From: Ignavibacteria bacterium | GTDB lineage: Bacteria > Bacteroidota > Ignavibacteria > Ignavibacteriales > SURF-24 | Reading direction: 5' to 3' | DNA length: 64,000 nt | Assembly: GCA_025612245.1 (NCBI GenBank) | Contig: JAAXKQ010000008.1 | Location: 62,001 to 126,000, forward strand | In this document: positions 29,143 to 37,380 of the stretch, one piece after another | Layout: each line of letters opens with the position of its first letter | Position numbering within the stretch: the first letter of the stretch is position 1 | Position numbers and translations under genes: made by a program | Notes under the pieces: model-generated | What the model was told of the DNA's origin: nothing | Databases searched by the model: none | What the model saw: only the letters and a program-made list of their open reading frames with translations

Positions 29143-29391
29143 GGTTTGACAAACTTCCTAAAAATCCGGAAGTTTGTCTTTCCTTTGAAACCTTTTCTTT
29201 ACAATCGGGAGGTCCGGAATGACGCGTCATTTCTTTTTTTTCGTACTTTCAGCATTTCTTTTGTTCTCTTTCTCTGATTCTTCTGCACAGGAGCCTCCTG
29301 TTAAGTGGGGAGAAATACCAATGGCCGACCTTCAGATGAAATCTTTCCCCCAGGATACCAATGCTACGGCACTCATTCTCTGCGATTACGG
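29143..29391 (+). repeat. 249-bp identical tract, copy 1 (leader plus 5' end of DUF3857 paralogue 1)
   Basis: These bases are identical to 31322-31570 at every position. They cover 76 bases of leader, including the hairpin and the GGGAGG ribosome-binding site, and the first 57 codons. The bases just outside both ends differ at once (G/C on the left, A/G on the right). The rest of the two genes is much more diverged. Confidence 0.95.
29148..29178 (+). promoter_or_regulatory. Leader hairpin of DUF3857 paralogue 1
   Basis: GACAAACTTCC (29148-29158) pairs perfectly with GGAAGTTTGTC (29168-29178) over a 9-base loop, and TTTCCTTT follows. It lies 40 bases ahead of the start codon, with no gene ending just upstream in this direction. 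It is therefore a leader element or attenuator rather than a terminator of a previous gene. The left arm overlaps a TTGACA hexamer (29146-29151), so a role as a -35 box or operator is equally possible. Confidence 0.5.
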
Positions 29392-31270
29392 AGAATCTTA
29401 CTTCGACAACAACCTTGATATAATATATAAAAGACACCTCAGGGTTAAGATACTTACTTCCAAGGGGTACAAATGGGCTTCCCACTCGGTGTCACTGTTT
29501 AAGGAAAACAACACAGAATCAATAAGAGACATAGAAGGCATGACTTACCGCCTGGATGAAAATGGTAATGTCATAAAGAATGAGCTGAACGAAAACGACA
29601 TATTCGAGGAAAAAATCAACGACAAATGGACTCGCTGCCGCTTCACGCTTCCGGCACTCCAGCCGGGCTGCGTAATTGAAATGCGCTATACCATAAGAAC
29701 CAGCAACCCCATAATGATGAGAGAATGGGCATTTCAGCATGATGAACCCGTACGCTGGAGCGAATACCGCGTTCGATTTCCTAAAAGGATTTCCTATTCG
29801 GGCATTCTGCAGGGCTATGAACAATTTGCAGTAAAAGAAAATGAAGAGGTTACACAGGTATTCTCCAGTACAGCACAATCCTTCCTGGGCACCTCCATCG
29901 CAAAATGCTGTCAGTGGCGCTGGGCTGTTAAGGATGCACCTGCCATCAGGGAGGAGCCTTTCATTACTACAACGGAAGATTATGTCAATAAGGTGAAAAT
30001 GCAGCTCGCCGGCTATGCCCGCCCGGAAGGAATGATAGAAAAAGTACTCAACGACTGGCCCGCACTTGTAAAGGAACTACTGGAACGCAGGGATTACTTC
30101 GGAAGAGTGGACGATACGAGAAAAGTCGGAAAGCTGGCCGAGAAAATTACCGGGGAAATTGAATCTCCCGAGGATAAGCTGAAAGCCATATACGACTGGC
30201 TCCGATATTCCGTCATCTGGTCCGGTGAGGAACGCCTCTTTCCCGAGCAGGACCCGGACGACCTTCTGGAATCTAAAAAAGGCAGTAATGCCGATATTAC
30301 AGTCCTGCTCCTGTCTTTACTGAAAAGCGTTGGCATAAAAGGAGAGCCGGTCATTCTAAGCACTCGCGAAAACGGCAGGGCCCTCGACCTTTACCCCATA
30401 ATTTCGCAGTTCAACTATGTTATTGCCCGGGTAACTCTGGACTCAAAGTCCTTCCTTCTGGATGCCACCGACCCGTACAGGCCGATGAGCCTGCTGCCTG
30501 AAAAGGTGCTTGATACAAAGGGATTGGTTCTGGACAATGAGGGTCACAAATGGATAGATGTTAAAGCCGACAGGACCAGCATGGATAATTCACTTGCCGT
30601 GCTCTCCGTCCTGGAGGATGGCTCCGTCTCCGGAAGCCTTCAGAAGGTGCTAACAGATTACAATTTGCTGAATCTCCGTCAGAAACTGGGCGGGAAAAAA
30701 GAAATTGAAATTGCACGCAGTAAATTTGATACCGATCGCTCGGGAATATCTATCGATTCAGCTGCTTTCAGCTATAAGGAAGATCCAAGTTTGTCCGTGA
30801 CAATAAAATCATCTTTCTCATCAAATTCATATGCACAGAAAAACGGTGAAACTATTTACATAAACCCCCAGGTAATTGACCGCATCTGGCAGAACCCTTT
30901 TAAGTCAGAGATAAGAAAGTTCCCCGTTGACTACGGCTATAAAAGAAAGATTTCAACTACTATAATTATTAACCTCCCCAACGGCTTTGAGCTCAAGGAA
31001 AAGCCAAAAGACATCTCAGTATACGGAGGAAAGAAGGACTTTTTATTTACTCGCCTTTCTGAGCTTCAGGGAAATACGCTTACCCTGAAAAGCAGCATTG
31101 AAATTAAATCGACACAGATGGATCCCGGACTCTACGAACCGCTGAAAGATTTCTATGCAAAAATAGTCTCGGCAGAATCCGAACAGGTAGTCTTATCCCG
31201 CATCAAGACTCCAGCCTTGTCCGGCGGCAGTCAAACGCCTCCAAAAACCGAGCCCACAGAAAAAAGGTAA
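29219..31270 (+). CDS. Secreted DUF3857/transglutaminase-like protein, catalytic residues lost (paralogue 1)
   Basis: The 683-residue protein has a signal peptide (MTRHFFFFVLSAFLLFSFSD, cut near residue 24). A DUF3857 beta-domain follows (about 40-250), then a transglutaminase-core-like domain (about 280-430) and a C-terminal beta-domain. At the site where active members have GDC, it reads GSN with Asn357 replacing the nucleophile. The catalytic His is Tyr400 (QFNYVI), while the Asp is kept (Asp415 in LLDATDP). It should thus be inactive as a protease or crosslinker and may bind ligand or structure a complex. GGGAGG precedes the ATG. It ends with its own terminator, before a paralogue with an identical leader. 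Confidence 0.88.
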   Translation: MTRHFFFFVLSAFLLFSFSDSSAQEPPVKWGEIPMADLQMKSFPQDTNATALILCDYGESYFDNNLDIIYKRHLRVKILTSKGYKWASHSVSLFKENNTESIRDIEGMTYRLDENGNVIKNELNENDIFEEKINDKWTRCRFTLPALQPGCVIEMRYTIRTSNPIMMREWAFQHDEPVRWSEYRVRFPKRISYSGILQGYEQFAVKENEEVTQVFSSTAQSFLGTSIAKCCQWRWAVKDAPAIREEPFITTTEDYVNKVKMQLAGYARPEGMIEKVLNDWPALVKELLERRDYFGRVDDTRKVGKLAEKITGEIESPEDKLKAIYDWLRYSVIWSGEERLFPEQDPDDLLESKKGSNADITVLLLSLLKSVGIKGEPVILSTRENGRALDLYPIISQFNYVIARVTLDSKSFLLDATDPYRPMSLLPEKVLDTKGLVLDNEGHKWIDVKADRTSMDNSLAVLSVLEDGSVSGSLQKVLTDYNLLNLRQKLGGKKEIEIARSKFDTDRSGISIDSAAFSYKEDPSLSVTIKSSFSSNSYAQKNGETIYINPQVIDRIWQNPFKSEIRKFPVDYGYKRKISTTIIINLPNGFELKEKPKDISVYGGKKDFLFTRLSELQGNTLTLKSSIEIKSTQMDPGLYEPLKDFYAKIVSAESEQVVLSRIKTPALSGGSQTPPKTEPTEKR

Positions 31271-31275
31271 AGTCC

Positions 31276-31301
31276 GGAAGATTTAATAAATCTTCCTTTT
31301 T
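31276..31301 (+). terminator. Intrinsic terminator of DUF3857 paralogue 1
   Basis: GGAAGATTTA (31276-31285) and TAAATCTTCC (31287-31296) form a stem of about 8 paired bases with a small loop, followed by five T residues. It lies 5 bases after the stop codon. Paralogue 2 therefore needs its own promoter, which must lie in or just before the duplicated leader. Confidence 0.8.
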
Positions 31302-31321
31302 GCCCGGATTTATCGTCTTCC

Positions 31322-31570
31322 GGTTTGACAAACTTCCTAAAAATCCGGAAGTTTGTCTTTCCTTTGAAACCTTTTCTTTACAATCGGGAGGTCCGGAATG
31401 ACGCGTCATTTCTTTTTTTTCGTACTTTCAGCATTTCTTTTGTTCTCTTTCTCTGATTCTTCTGCACAGGAGCCTCCTGTTAAGTGGGGAGAAATACCAA
31501 TGGCCGACCTTCAGATGAAATCTTTCCCCCAGGATACCAATGCTACGGCACTCATTCTCTGCGATTACGG
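31322..31570 (+). repeat. 249-bp identical tract, copy 2 (leader plus 5' end of DUF3857 paralogue 2)
   Basis: Base-for-base identical to 29143-29391, lying 2,179 bases downstream. It includes the leader hairpin (31327-31357), the GGGAGG ribosome-binding site and the first 57 codons of paralogue 2. Confidence 0.95.
31327..31357 (+). promoter_or_regulatory. Leader hairpin of DUF3857 paralogue 2
   Basis: Second copy of the 11-bp stem seen at 29148-29178. Since the preceding gene already has its own terminator at 31276-31301, this hairpin is better read as part of the leader of paralogue 2. Confidence 0.5.
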
Positions 31571-33500
31571 GGAATCTACTTTCGACGATGATTTTAACAT
31601 AATTTTTAAGAGACACCTCAGGGTTAAGATTCTTACGGCTAAGGGATACGACTGGGGTACACATTCAGTAACAATTCTGACTAAGGAAGGAACTGAGTCC
31701 ATAGACGATATAGAAGGCGTAACTTACCGCCTGGACGACAAGGGCAATATCGTTAAAAACGAGATGGAAAGCGATGATATTTTTAAGGAAAAATTAAGCG
31801 ATGGCTGGACACGCTACCGCTTCACGCTCCCGGCACTCCAGCCCGGCTGCGTAATCGAAATGCGCTACAAAATCATAAGCAACAGCATCGGAAGAATGAG
31901 AGACTGGGTTTTCCAGTACAGCGAACCCGTACGCTGGAGCGAATACCGCATGCGCAGCCCAAAAGTAATTGCTTATTCAGACATAACCCTGGGCTATGAA
32001 CCGCTTACTATAGACGACAGGGAAGACGTAACACAGTATTTCTCAGGCTCTGCCGCGGCATATATTGGACAGTCAATGGTGGACTGCACACAAAGGCGCT
32101 GGGTCCTCAAAGACGCACCTGCAATCCGCGAAGAACCCTTTATTACAACAACCGATGATTATAAGACCCGGCTCGACGTTCAGCTTGCAGGATACGCTTT
32201 CTCCGGCGGAGGCTCTAAGAAAGTGCTCAACGACTGGCCAACCGTGGTAAAAGATCTCATGAATGATAATGAATTCTATAAGATAATAGACGATACAAGG
32301 CAGGTCAGAAAACTGGCTGAAAAACTGACCGCAGGACTTCAGTCGCCGGAGGCTAAAATGAGAGCCATCTACGACTGGGTCCGCACCTCAATCGTCTGGT
32401 CGGGCGAACAGAGAATTTTTGCCCACCAGGAGGTGGACGACCTTCTGGACTCTAAAAAGGGCAATAATGCCGAGATCTCTTTTTTACTCATTTCTCTTCT
32501 TAAATGCGCCGGCATTGAGGCCGACCCGGTTATACTGAGCACCCGCTCAAACGGTGCGGTCCAGGATGTTTACCCAATCGTTTCACAGTTTAATTACCTG
32601 ATAGTTAGAGCATCTGTTGGCTCCAGGTATTACCTGCTCGATGCAACGGACCCTTACCGCCCCATGGACCTGCTGCCCGTAAAGGTGCTCAATACAAGAG
32701 GGCTGGTTATAAGAGAAAAGAACTTCGGCTGGGTGGCTGTAAATGCCGATAGGGTAAACCTTGGTAATTCATTCGCCTCACTTTCTCTTTCCTCCGACGG
32801 CTCTCTTAAGGGCAGGCTTGAAGAAAACATTTCTCCATACGGCAGCCTGAAGCTGCGCCAGAAGCCTAATGATAAAAAAGATATTGACATAGCCAGGGAT
32901 GAATTTGAAACCGACAGGTCGGGTATTACCCTGGATTCAGTTTTAATTACAAATAAAGACAGCCTTGAGCTTCCTTTGAATATTAAGGCCTCTTTCTCGT
33001 CTTCTTCCTATGCACAAAAAAACGGAGACATGATATATCTGAACCCGCAGATATTAGACCGCCTTTGGGAAAACCCTCTTAAGACCCCGGTAAGAAAGTT
33101 CCCGGTAGATTACGCATATAAAAGCAAACACACCACTGTAATTGAAATTAATATCCCTGAAGGCTTTGAAGTAAAGGAAAAGTTAAAGGACGTTTCTGTC
33201 TTCGGCGGCGCAAGGGCGCTTTCTTTTACACGCCAGACTAAAGTGGAAGGCAATAAGCTCAGCCTTTGCTGCACCATGGAAATTAAGGAATCCCAGATTA
33301 AACCAAAATTCTACGACCAGCTCAGGGATTTTTACGCCGCTGTCGTTTCGGCCACTTCAGAACAGATTGTCTTATCCCGCATCCCGGTTCAAACCGTTGA
33401 ACTCACTGCACCGGCTTCCGGCAAAGATTCACCCCAAAAGACGGATCTTCCGGGTAATACGGTAAAGAAAACTTCTAAAACAAAAAAGGGGAAAGGCTGA
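31398..33500 (+). CDS. Secreted DUF3857/transglutaminase-like protein, catalytic residues lost (paralogue 2)
   Basis: The 700-residue protein shares its signal peptide and first 60 residues exactly with paralogue 1. It then diverges but keeps the same domain order and the same numbering of the dead active site: Asn357 for Cys (KGNNAE), Tyr400 for His (FNYLIV), Asp415 retained (LLDATDP). A Lys-rich tail (TVKKTSKTKKGKG) extends the C-terminus. The next paralogue begins 2 bases after its stop, so they are translated from one message. Duplication, with later homogenisation of the 5' end, explains the pattern. Confidence 0.88.
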   Translation: MTRHFFFFVLSAFLLFSFSDSSAQEPPVKWGEIPMADLQMKSFPQDTNATALILCDYGESTFDDDFNIIFKRHLRVKILTAKGYDWGTHSVTILTKEGTESIDDIEGVTYRLDDKGNIVKNEMESDDIFKEKLSDGWTRYRFTLPALQPGCVIEMRYKIISNSIGRMRDWVFQYSEPVRWSEYRMRSPKVIAYSDITLGYEPLTIDDREDVTQYFSGSAAAYIGQSMVDCTQRRWVLKDAPAIREEPFITTTDDYKTRLDVQLAGYAFSGGGSKKVLNDWPTVVKDLMNDNEFYKIIDDTRQVRKLAEKLTAGLQSPEAKMRAIYDWVRTSIVWSGEQRIFAHQEVDDLLDSKKGNNAEISFLLISLLKCAGIEADPVILSTRSNGAVQDVYPIVSQFNYLIVRASVGSRYYLLDATDPYRPMDLLPVKVLNTRGLVIREKNFGWVAVNADRVNLGNSFASLSLSSDGSLKGRLEENISPYGSLKLRQKPNDKKDIDIARDEFETDRSGITLDSVLITNKDSLELPLNIKASFSSSSYAQKNGDMIYLNPQILDRLWENPLKTPVRKFPVDYAYKSKHTTVIEINIPEGFEVKEKLKDVSVFGGARALSFTRQTKVEGNKLSLCCTMEIKESQIKPKFYDQLRDFYAAVVSATSEQIVLSRIPVQTVELTAPASGKDSPQKTDLPGNTVKKTSKTKKGKG

Positions 33501-33502
33501 AA

Positions 33503-35431
33503 ATGAAATTCACGGCCCGTTTTTTTCTCTGCACTGTTCTTCTTTTAACTGCCTCCGTTTTTTCTCCTCTAAATGGAGAGGATAATGAATATAATTGCAA
33601 TAAAATACCCGCATTCCTTAAGAAAGAAGCCGGTGCAGTCATAAGGGAATATTTACTCAGATTTGAAGTTAAAAACGAAAAACGGGCCGTGCTTAAGGTA
33701 AAGCGTGCCGTAACCATTTTCAATAAGGAAGAGCAGCAGGAATACGGCAGGCTTGTTCTCGAATACGATAAATTCAGCGAAGTTGAAAGCCTTGAGGGAA
33801 GAATTCTTGAGTCTAATGGCCAGGAGGTCAGGGAGCTCGAAGACTCGGACGTAAAGGACGTGAGTGCTTTCAGCGATTATTCCCTCTATGAAGATAACCG
33901 CGTAAAGATTGCCGAGCTTTATTACAACAGGTTTCCTTACACCGTCGAATTTACGTATGAGATTTCCTTTAAGGGCTATCTCAACTGGCCAGTGTGGCTT
34001 TCACAGGAGTCACTCCAGCCCGTTGAAAAAAGCCGCTTTGAGGTGCTCTTACCCGAAGACCAGACTTTGAGGTACTGGACAAACTCAGATTCATTAAAAC
34101 CCGCTGTAAGCTCCGAAGACGGGAAAAAGCTCTACAGCTGGGAGGCTAAAAACCTGCCTTTGCTTTCAAAGGACATAATTGGAGACGACATTGAGGATAT
34201 TGCGGCAATCGTACGCACTGCACCCGGAAACTTTGAACTGGACGGATTCCGGGGAAACATGGAAACCTGGAAAGACTTTGGCCTCTGGATAAACAGGCTT
34301 TATAAGGATAGAAGCAGCCTTCCCGATGATGCAATAAAAGACGTTAATGCAATTGCCGCCGCCTCTGGCAGCAGCAAACCTGAACTCATACGTAAGCTCT
34401 ACCGCTATATGCAGAAGCGTACAAGGTATGTGAGCGTCCAGCTCGGAATCGGCGGCTACCAGCCGTTTGATGCAAAATATGTCCACGAAAAAGGCTACGG
34501 CGACTGCAAGGCGCTTAGTAACTACATGGTCTCCCTGCTCAAACAGGCAGGCGTTAAGGCCTTCCCGGTTCTGATCAGAAACGGGCACTTCCGCAGACCC
34601 ATGATTAAAGAGTTCCCTTCAAACCAGTTCAACCACGTCATTGTCTGCGTACCCCTGGAGGAGCAGGATACCCTCTGGCTTGAATGCACCAGCCAGACAA
34701 CCCCGCCGGGCTTTCTTGGCAGCAGCTGCGAAAACAGGCAGGCCCTTATGATTACTGACGAAGGGGGCATAGTGGTACAGACTCCCGGAACTTCTTCGTC
34801 ATATAACCTGCAGCAGAGAAACCTCAGCGTGGACATCTCTTCCCTTGGTAGCCTTAAGCTCGATGCTGAAATTAAATGGACGGGCAATCAGCAGGATGAT
34901 CCGCGCAGCATAATTAAGGAAAGCACTCCCGAGGACAGGGAAAAATGGATCTTATACTCCCTGGAAACCCCGATGGCAAAACTTGAGAAGGTTAAATCAA
35001 TCCGGGTCGAAGATGAAAAGCCGGAAGTTCAGATGAATCTGAGCTTATCCCTTCCTAACTATGCCTCGGCCTCCGGCAACAGGCTTTTCTTTCAGCCTAA
35101 CATCATGGAAAGGCGCACTGATGTGCCCGGGAACGTGGCAGTAAGGCTCTCGCCCTTAAGGTTCGGCTATCCTTACCTGGATGTTGATTCGGTCTGCTAT
35201 AAAATCCCCGGGGGATACCGTGTGGAAGCCATGCCCGAAGTAACCGAGCTTAAAACCCCTTTTGGAAGTTTCAGCTCAAAGACTGTACAGACCGATCCTT
35301 CCACGCTTATCTATACAAGAAGGCTTGAGATAAAAAGCTACGCTGTTGACGCCAAAGATTACGCGGAATACAGGAAATTTATCTCCTCCGTCGTAAAATC
35401 CGACAGGGCGCAGGTGGTGCTCGTAAAATAA
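33503..35431 (+). CDS. Secreted DUF3857/transglutaminase protein with intact Cys and His (paralogue 3)
   Basis: The 642-residue protein has a signal peptide (MKFTARFFLCTVLLLTAS), DUF3857 (about 35-240), a transglutaminase core (about 290-420) and a C-terminal beta-domain. The core keeps nucleophile Cys335 in GYGDCKALS and His378 in QFNHVIV. The third position is Glu394 in WLECTSQ, as I recall from Bacteroidota relatives, so activity is plausible. It is probably a periplasmic or surface cysteine peptidase or amide-cleaving enzyme; the substrate is unknown. It starts 2 bases after paralogue 2, implying that the inactive and the possibly active members are made together. Confidence 0.88.
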   Translation: MKFTARFFLCTVLLLTASVFSPLNGEDNEYNCNKIPAFLKKEAGAVIREYLLRFEVKNEKRAVLKVKRAVTIFNKEEQQEYGRLVLEYDKFSEVESLEGRILESNGQEVRELEDSDVKDVSAFSDYSLYEDNRVKIAELYYNRFPYTVEFTYEISFKGYLNWPVWLSQESLQPVEKSRFEVLLPEDQTLRYWTNSDSLKPAVSSEDGKKLYSWEAKNLPLLSKDIIGDDIEDIAAIVRTAPGNFELDGFRGNMETWKDFGLWINRLYKDRSSLPDDAIKDVNAIAAASGSSKPELIRKLYRYMQKRTRYVSVQLGIGGYQPFDAKYVHEKGYGDCKALSNYMVSLLKQAGVKAFPVLIRNGHFRRPMIKEFPSNQFNHVIVCVPLEEQDTLWLECTSQTTPPGFLGSSCENRQALMITDEGGIVVQTPGTSSSYNLQQRNLSVDISSLGSLKLDAEIKWTGNQQDDPRSIIKESTPEDREKWILYSLETPMAKLEKVKSIRVEDEKPEVQMNLSLSLPNYASASGNRLFFQPNIMERRTDVPGNVAVRLSPLRFGYPYLDVDSVCYKIPGGYRVEAMPEVTELKTPFGSFSSKTVQTDPSTLIYTRRLEIKSYAVDAKDYAEYRKFISSVVKSDRAQVVLVK

Positions 35432-36198: not shown

Positions 36199-37380
36199 CT
36201 ACAAACCCAGCTTTTTTGCTATTTCTCCCGGAATTGCGTCTTTATGCACCATAATGGCAACCGTCTTCAGGCGCACATAAGGCTCGGATATGTATATGTA
36301 ACCACCGTTGGTCTGCTCGGTGCCCCAGGAGTTCTTTGTTAAATAGTACTTTGATCCTTTCTGGTCGTGTGCCAGCCCTACAAAGTGCATCAGGTGGTCG
36401 TCGGTTGTGGTATAATTGTCAAATGCCTCCTGCCTGTCCTGCTGCGTAACGGTCTTTTCAACTTCAGGTGAAGTTACAACTTCGTCTTTTTCAGACGAAG
36501 TCTTGTCGTTCCAGTCCTTAAGCGGCAAAATGGCGTAACCCTTTTTCTGTGAGAATTCATGCTCGCTGATGTCTCCGTCCCAGGCAACCGAATACCCGTT
36601 TTTGAGCGCATTGTCAACTACCATTTCAAGCTCATCCATCGGGAGGTTATAATACTCGCCGCGGCTCCAGTTATCGGGAATCTCAAGGGCAAATTTGCTG
36701 TAGAAAGGGTGATGCGAATAAGAGGTCAGTTCCACGTAGTCATCCAGGTTCAGTTTCAGCTCGTCTTTGGCAAAGGTAAGGGGAGTATAGGTCCTGCCCT
36801 TATATGTAAATTCCTTCGGGAGCTTACCCATATAAACGTCCAGCACAGCCTCATAGGCTTCTTTCCAGCGGCGGCTCAGCTTTCCGCTTTTATTCTCAGC
36901 CATGGTCTTCAGCATGCTTTCTGTAACGGCTTTCATTTCCGCGTGGTTATGCTTTTCCTCGCCGTTATTTCTTCCCGTATATGCCTCCTCGGGCACTATT
37001 CCAAAGCTGCGTATCTGGTTAATGACGTCGTGAGCCTGTCCGCCCTCACCATAGTTGGCCATTCCCTGGTATCTTATATAGCTTTCGGCCTTCAGGGGGT
37101 AGCTGTTGCGGACGATAAACATCTCCGAAAGGTCATATTCGCCTTTACCCTGCCTTAAAAGCTCGGTTTCAAGGAACGATACCGTTGCAAAACACCAGCA
37201 GGTCCCCGTCCTGGCCTGGTTTTTTACGGGCGTAGTCTTAATTTCAAAGTCTTTTACAAACGAATAGATTGCCTTTGGCTCATCTTTACCCTTAGCCTCT
37301 TTCTCCTCCTGTGCGAAGCTTCCGGAAGAAAAACTCAGGAATAATATCAGTAAAGCGATCAGAGTTCTAAGTTTCAGCAT
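36199..37380 (-). CDS. Secreted C1 family (bleomycin hydrolase/PepC-like) cysteine peptidase
   Basis: The 393-residue protein has a signal peptide (MLKLRTLIALLILFLSFSSG, cut after SFA). The papain-type catalytic set is complete: Cys61 in RTGTCWCFA, His in DHLMHFVGLA (about 333) and Asn in TKNSWGTE (about 355). Gln in VKNQARTG forms the oxyanion hole. The insertions and overall length place it in the PepC/bleomycin hydrolase group, but export is unusual for the cytoplasmic PepC. Periplasmic or secreted peptide breakdown is likely. A GGAG ribosome-binding site precedes the ATG. It is monocistronic. Confidence 0.88.
   Translation of the reverse strand: MLKLRTLIALLILFLSFSSGSFAQEEKEAKGKDEPKAIYSFVKDFEIKTTPVKNQARTGTCWCFATVSFLETELLRQGKGEYDLSEMFIVRNSYPLKAESYIRYQGMANYGEGGQAHDVINQIRSFGIVPEEAYTGRNNGEEKHNHAEMKAVTESMLKTMAENKSGKLSRRWKEAYEAVLDVYMGKLPKEFTYKGRTYTPLTFAKDELKLNLDDYVELTSYSHHPFYSKFALEIPDNWSRGEYYNLPMDELEMVVDNALKNGYSVAWDGDISEHEFSQKKGYAILPLKDWNDKTSSEKDEVVTSPEVEKTVTQQDRQEAFDNYTTTDDHLMHFVGLAHDQKGSKYYLTKNSWGTEQTNGGYIYISEPYVRLKTVAIMVHKDAIPGEIAKKLGL

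Follow-up and report, generated by a model that had tools for sequence, protein, structure and literature searches.

An Old, Selected Gene Pair of a Live Transglutaminase-Like Enzyme and Its Dead Sister, Recurring across a Bacterial Phylum

Three DUF3857-Transglutaminase-Like Genes in the Window

The window, a stretch of 64,000 nucleotides from an Ignavibacteria bacterium (Bacteroidota), carries three paralogous genes for proteins with a DUF3857 domain and a transglutaminase-like core (table 1). We re-read the active-site residues and found them as the sequence-only reading had given them: in paralogues 1 and 2, which are 60% identical, Asn, Tyr, and Asp stand at identical numbering, and paralogue 3 has Cys335 and His378. 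In addition, Glu394 rather than an Asp completes the catalytic triad of paralogue 3; the Cys-His-Asp/Glu triad is absent from paralogues 1 and 2. In Pfam searches, all three proteins passed the DUF3857 (PF12969) cut-off of 24.6 bits, with 42.9, 27.2, and 102.4 bits, respectively. For Transglut_core (PF01841), the dead paralogues scored 38.5 and 42.8 bits and the live paralogue 3 scored 18.5 bits against a cut-off of 23; despite this sub-threshold score, the transglutaminase-like fold of paralogue 3 was clear from its predicted model. NCBIfam gave no match for the six proteins searched. A papain-like C1 peptidase with a signal and with CWCF, HFVG, and NSWG motifs is encoded 0.8 kb from the cluster (window 36199-37380, minus strand), a neighbor common only to G001, a genome with the same triplet.

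Table 1. Positions (in the window), strand, and characteristics of the three genes and associated features.
Feature	Position	Strand	Characteristics
Identical tract, copy 1	29144..29391	+	about 75 bases upstream plus first 173 bases of paralogue 1
Paralogue 1, dead DUF3857-transglutaminase-like	29219..31270	+	N357/Y400/D415; 683 aa; signal-peptide-like start; duplicate of dead member
Terminator-like hairpin	31276..31296	+	9 pairs then T5; directly past stop of paralogue 1
Identical tract, copy 2	31323..31570	+	same DNA as 29144-29391; 249-column alignment run
Paralogue 2, dead DUF3857-transglutaminase-like	31398..33500	+	N357/Y400/D415; 700 aa; the dead copy adjoining the live gene
Paralogue 3, live DUF3857-transglutaminase-like enzyme (predicted)	33503..35431	+	C335/H378/E394; 642 aa; signal-peptide-like start

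The gap between paralogues 2 and 3 measured 2 bases, as previously noted, and the 127 bases between paralogues 1 and 2 contain the terminator-like hairpin. As 10 terminator-like sites were found in the window versus 9.0 expected in shuffles, the argument from this hairpin is one of placement, not of number. The proposal that dead and live members are made from one message is therefore plausible for paralogues 2 and 3, but less so for paralogue 1.

Beyond base 173, the DNA identity of paralogues 1 and 2 falls to about 80% and then lies mostly between 50% and 80%. The identical tract is, as read from the alignment, a recent gene conversion of the leader, the signal region, and the first 57 codons. 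The dead genes of G001 showed a weaker rise in identity at the same 5' place; thus, the 5' end of the dead genes seems to have been homogenized repeatedly. An 11-pair hairpin was observed in the identical leader of both dead genes (about 29147-29177 and 31326-31356) and was not seen in the folded G001 leaders; Rfam gave no match within the window, so this leader hairpin is not a described element.

Predicted Structures Place the Lost Residues at the Active Site

AlphaFold2 models, computed from alignments of the window and locus proteins, reached a mean pLDDT of 89.9 for paralogue 2 and 91.0 for paralogue 3. In the models, N357 and C335 each open the same core helix (357-370 and 335-348), Y400 and H378 each open the same following strand (400-407 and 378-384), and D415 and E394 both lie just past the next strand. 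These matching positions indicated that the active-site columns of the alignment are correct. Both models consist of three domains with one N-terminal helix and without a helical membrane bundle; Pfam likewise gave no helical-membrane-bundle domain in paralogues 1-3 or in the next two genes. In the live protein, the transglutaminase-like fold is predicted to sit between two beta domains.

The Dead State Is Conserved, the Replacing Residues Are Not

We counted the residues at the three catalytic columns in 130 dead and 75 live proteins of the phylum. The Cys column of the dead proteins was occupied by Ser (41), Val (26), Gln (14), Ala (12), Ile (11), Gly (10), Thr (5), Asn (4), Pro (3), and one each of Trp, Leu, Asp, and His, and Cys was found in none of the 130. 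The His column held Tyr in 58 and His in 24, followed by many other residues (106 of 130 without His), and the Asp column held Asp in 127. Cys and His were both present in all 75 live proteins; the third residue was Glu in 72 and Asp in 3. Among 90 dead proteins at named loci with a residue at the Cys column, a single one (L225) had Cys, together with Tyr at the His column. In the strongly supported group of 13 sequences that includes the window proteins, the Cys column held Ser (6), Asn (5), Gly, and Val (1 each) and the His column Tyr (11), Cys, and Trp (1 each); in these sequences, Asn is common rather than fixed, and Tyr is the usual residue.

Conservation of Asn and Tyr among orthologues, which had been suggested as a check, was thus not borne out, since the letters vary (Asn in 4 and Tyr in 58 of the 130). 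The sequence-only reading had taken free variation at these two positions as an argument against a pseudoenzyme; this variation applies to the letters, but not to the dead state, because Cys never recurs in the census. That paralogues 1 and 2 are without the catalytic Cys and His holds, and no other Cys/His pair takes their place: in the 130 dead proteins, the best alternative Cys column reached 12% and the best His column 55%, the latter being H73, inside DUF3857 and not in the core. A switch to a serine nucleophile was also rejected, as Ser/Thr-His-Asp stood at the three columns in just 13 of the 130. With 130 dead versus 75 live proteins, annotating all copies as transglutaminases would mislabel over half of them.

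Dead and Live Genes Are Linked across the Phylum

The phylum sample comprised 296 genomes, searched with a live profile of 35 rows and a dead profile of 39 rows. Live copies scored at least 483 bits, and a gap in the score list separated them from the next match at 290 bits; the lowest dead entries taken on score alone had 324 bits, and single active relatives had at most 276 bits. Two broken or contig-end dead fragments were counted besides the entries taken on score, namely, the second dead copy of G014, whose two frame-broken fragments made one entry, and a contig-end fragment of G591; hence, the co-occurrence analysis held 131 dead entries and the census 130 dead proteins (plus two fragments without the Cys column). 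Because the best four candidates per genome were scored, copy numbers are lower bounds: the live family had at least 75 copies in 72 genomes, and the dead family at least 131 entries in 88 genomes. Both families were present in 72 genomes and the dead family alone in 16, and there was no genome with the live family alone. The Fisher test applied to this co-occurrence takes no account of relatedness among the genomes.

A same-strand dead gene lay within 400 bases (measured between profile ends) of all 75 live copies, and within 60 bases of 57 of them. The dead gene came first at 47 copies, the live gene came first at 26, and dead genes stood on both sides at 2; since either order was found, the linkage has been kept or re-formed through rearrangement. 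Within 5 kb of the live gene, we found one dead copy in 47 cases, two in 27, and three in 1. In a count based on open reading frames, 60 dead-live neighbors remained after duplicate removal (one of them a distant extra dead copy), among which 39 were at most 20 bases apart, in either order, and 13 overlapped by 1 or 4 bases. The live gene of G252 (L111), which is split in two frames, was left as is and was excluded from the trees by length, and in the context set L094 stands in for L123 (an antisense frame).

The same linkage was observed at named loci found with live-family patterns, where a dead gene was present at 78 of 80, at 77 of these within 400 bases; the two live loci without a dead gene in the flank examined belong to Cytophagales MAGs (L217 and L256). 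The named matches include Pontibacter, Rufibacter, Chitinophaga, Pedobacter, Hymenobacter, Spirosoma, Dyadobacter, Runella, Ancylomarina, Balneola, Longimonas, Rhodothermales, and one Gemmatimonadota MAG, and they partly overlap the phylum sample, so that the two sets are not independent. Among 59 close relatives, the dead-pair profile matched 16 genomes (the matches include single active relatives), and dead members adjoined the live member in most contexts inspected, with exceptions. Thus, the dead-live pairing is kept far beyond the genus of the window, and this conservation is what a functional partnership, as suspected from the window alone, predicts.

The 16 dead-only genomes belong mostly to family f43. 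At L115 (G072), a dead gene stands without a live neighbor, and the dead-only genes of L144 and L146 (G453 and G474) have Gln at the Cys column; in both of the latter, the dead gene sits between a pyrC-like and a tsaB-like gene, as named by eye.

Clustering of the neighboring genes showed no other gene as widely shared as the pair; the other groups reached 18 of 60 contexts (one broad cluster) or at most 7. Outside close relatives, no further gene recurs next to the pair, which makes the pair itself the unit. A small control was available in single DUF3857-transglutaminase-like proteins (e.g., L045, L046, L047, and G000:C21), which have the same DUF3857 domain and core and a full triad and fall on the live side of the trees, but differ from the live family in having Asp instead of Glu (Cys-His-Asp). 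All seven contexts inspected for these single active proteins held one family member only, with no dead neighbor.

Evolution and Selection of the Pair

In a tree of 118 members (only those of at least 450 aa), the dead and the live proteins each fell on one side of a branch (support 92 and 99). The dead genes were duplicated separately in many lineages (e.g., L129, L134, L137, L139, L145, and the genus of the window), and the live copies showed no such tandem pairs in this tree. The triplet of the window is therefore the pair plus one dead duplicate; the duplication predates the split from G001, in which the same triplet was found at 71-74% identity. The pseudoenzyme pair of the sequence-only reading is one dead gene and its duplicate; 47 of the 75 live genes have a single dead copy within 5 kb. 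The second dead copy of G014, which lies beyond the pair (L042 8866-10954, minus strand), is broken into two frames and is apparently a decaying duplicate.

Two further pair types, both with the live gene first, were found, with the dead partner carrying Ala/Arg/Asp (L052, L290, L291, and L297) or Met/Tyr/Phe or Asp/Asn/Phe (L050 and L292) at the three columns. To the Ala/Arg/Asp type belongs G188:C2, where one live and three dead genes stand in a row. These pair types share the domain architecture (loci L289, L290, L291, L295, L297, and L052; L050 and L292). When the three catalytic columns were removed, a 53-row tree placed all 24 dead rows, from three pair types, on one side with an SH-aLRT of 89, which is not firm, and joined the two extra live types (support 97); one early loss of catalysis is possible.

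Comparison with the G001 orthologues gave dN/dS values of 0.136, 0.081, and 0.103 for paralogues 1, 2, and 3, respectively, at dS of 1.1 to 2.3, which is near saturation; in other genera, only three comparisons had dS below 1.8. Purifying selection acts on the dead genes as it does on the live one. About 60 columns of the dead family were kept at 75% or more, including Asp415 (98%) and position 361, which is Asn in 90% but Thr or Ser in the proteins of the window. A loop with the pattern S-T-R-x-x-G was also maintained in the dead proteins (S381 92%, T382 82%, R383 77%, and G386 98%). This loop connects the strand that follows the Cys helix with the one beginning at residue 400 and, by topology, should start near the former His. 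As T382 was also present in 7 of 7 single active relatives, the loop may reflect upkeep of the ancestral fold rather than a binding site. The distances among dead proteins mirrored those among live proteins (Mantel r 0.881 for 42 pairs; same nearest neighbor in 23 of 42), although linked genes give such a high r through shared inheritance alone.

An open frame, a conserved fold, purifying selection, and a loss common to orthologues, which distinguish a pseudoenzyme from a pseudogene, were all found for the dead family. Because the absence of Cys is conserved, the pairing is near-absolute, and dead and live members fall on separate sides of a branch, we concluded that the dead and live proteins are an old, selected enzyme-pseudoenzyme pair that is not local to the window. 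Neither the dead state nor the pairing is due to chance, as both recur across the phylum.

A Proposed Two-Part Exported Enzyme and Its Alternatives

The near-constant adjacency of a long-dead look-alike suggests that the enzyme depends on this dead partner for its function. We proposed, with somewhat better than even confidence, that the pair makes up a two-part exported enzyme, in which the live thiol enzyme acts only with a dead sister that binds it or its substrate. The live protein, with its Cys-His-Glu triad, would catalyze a thiol-dependent reaction, the likeliest being amide-bond hydrolysis or transfer; its Glu does not speak against activity, since the superfamily triad is described, in a passage of PMC4866520, as usually Cys-His-Asp/Glu. 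The dead protein would have kept the whole three-domain fold and the Asp while giving up the nucleophile, and it might bind the live protein or its substrate as an adaptor, an activator, or a folding partner. The two would be exported, to judge from N-terminal sequences inspected by eye, and would form a heteromer with the dead protein as its obligate substrate-binding or activating subunit, and extra dead copies, as in the window, could provide more than one adaptor for one enzyme. This proposal is supported by the near-absolute linkage in either gene order, the lack of any other widely shared neighbor, the dead state, the constraint, the mirrored dead and live distances, the kept Asp and loop, the repeated duplication of the dead gene, and the two further pair types. 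Counted against it are the 2 of 80 named loci without a dead gene, the 1 of 90 dead proteins with Cys, and the 16 of 88 dead-bearing genomes without the live gene, which indicate that the dead protein also functions in some way apart from this enzyme. A bolder and distinctly more tentative version is that an obligate complex arose once, before the three subtypes split, and persisted as a two-gene unit phylum-wide; one sister would have lost catalysis early, and its copies would now act as interchangeable substrate adaptors for one exported thiol enzyme.

Several other explanations account for part of these observations. The live protein could act on the dead one as its substrate or structural target, cross-linking, cleaving, or tethering a sister that forms a surface or periplasmic layer. 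The same linkage (75 of 75 and 78 of 80) would result, and some non-enzyme relatives of transglutaminases are structural, among them protein 4.2, which matched paralogue 2 (7uzs, Z 9.8, rmsd 4.2, 147 aligned); however, a mere target would not be expected to keep the loop and the Asp of the former active site so strongly, and both proteins share a three-domain fold rather than a simple repeat, which leaves this explanation unlikely. We also hold it improbable that the dead protein serves solely in the folding or export of the live one, as some pro-domains do. Dead genes do come first at 47 of the 75 loci, and 39 of the 60 countable neighbors are within 20 bases, in either order, but a folding helper fits poorly with the live gene coming first at 26 of 75, with the 16 dead-only genomes, with a dead protein equal in size to the enzyme, and with its repeated duplication. 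If the two genes had separate functions and simply shared an operon, the dead-only genomes (16 of 88) would be explained, and genes of one pathway can stay linked; this too has a low probability in our estimate, given that no other neighbor is as widely shared, that the linkage is all but absolute, and that the pairing occurs in three pair types.

Two further explanations deny the premise of a dead protein under selection. If the dead family were an enzyme with other catalytic residues, the Ser/Thr-His-Asp combination in 13 of 130 could mark such a site, and Cys-His-Ser/Thr triads are proposed in a passage of PMC4866520 to be active elsewhere in the superfamily; against the highly varied Cys column, the 106 of 130 proteins without His, and the lack of any other Cys or His column above 12% or 55%, we consider this very improbable. 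Least credible are decaying pseudogenes or an assembly artefact. The identical 249-column tract could suggest a recent or misassembled repeat, but it is confined to the 5' end, the frames are open, and the G001 triplet stands at 71-74% identity; for the family, this reading is refuted by phylum-wide occurrence and purifying selection.

Relation to Known Systems

Pseudoenzymes beside live sisters are known singly; here, the pairing holds almost without exception throughout a phylum, and it offers many natural variants of the lost site together with repeated duplication of the dead half only. What the dead sister does for the live one is thereby made answerable in strains that carry the pair. 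Searches of open-licence papers returned none on the dead-live pair, which does not imply absence from print; DUF3857 is named in one of these papers. RloB of Pseudomonas is alike in that an inactive, periplasm-facing transglutaminase-like domain is encoded with a working enzyme; according to PMC12239564, this domain is carried on seven transmembrane helices, its gene shares an operon with a protease gene, and mutations in rloB compensate for the loss of the proteases. RloB differs in its architecture and in its partner, which is an aspartic protease rather than a live paralogue with the same fold. Human protein 4.2 (EPB42) has a transglutaminase fold without catalysis, and FBXO21 also has an inactive transglutaminase domain, according to a passage of PMC10318531. 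The structural match of protein 4.2 came from erythrocyte ankyrin complex structures, and only the core aligned. Protein 4.2 differs in belonging to the animal transglutaminase family and is not known to be encoded next to a live sister.

Foldseek matches to aminopeptidases and oligosaccharyltransferase subunits were put aside because they reflect the beta domains. The next best core match of the live model was to the LapG-type transglutaminase-like cysteine proteases (4FGQ and 4U65; Z 11.1, rmsd 3.4, 135 aligned). These are single-domain proteins, and the regulator of LapG is LapD; LapG is not known to be controlled by a dead sister. The top structural match of both models was PDB 3KD4, BDI_1141 of Parabacteroides distasonis (DUF3857-transglutaminase-like-DUF3858), titled "putative protease" and mentioned in a passage of a paper on vasohibins. 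It aligned over nearly the whole chain with the live model (Z 26.1, rmsd 3.9, 492 aligned) and with the dead model of paralogue 2 (Z 18.7, rmsd 6.2, 480 aligned), but at 13-15% identity to the window models, and it was the sole relevant match, at weak E-values, when solved structures were searched by sequence. In profile alignments, the Cys column of 3KD4 is Pro; since Pro stands where the catalytic Cys would be expected, this suggests that 3KD4, filed as a putative protease, is itself a dead member.
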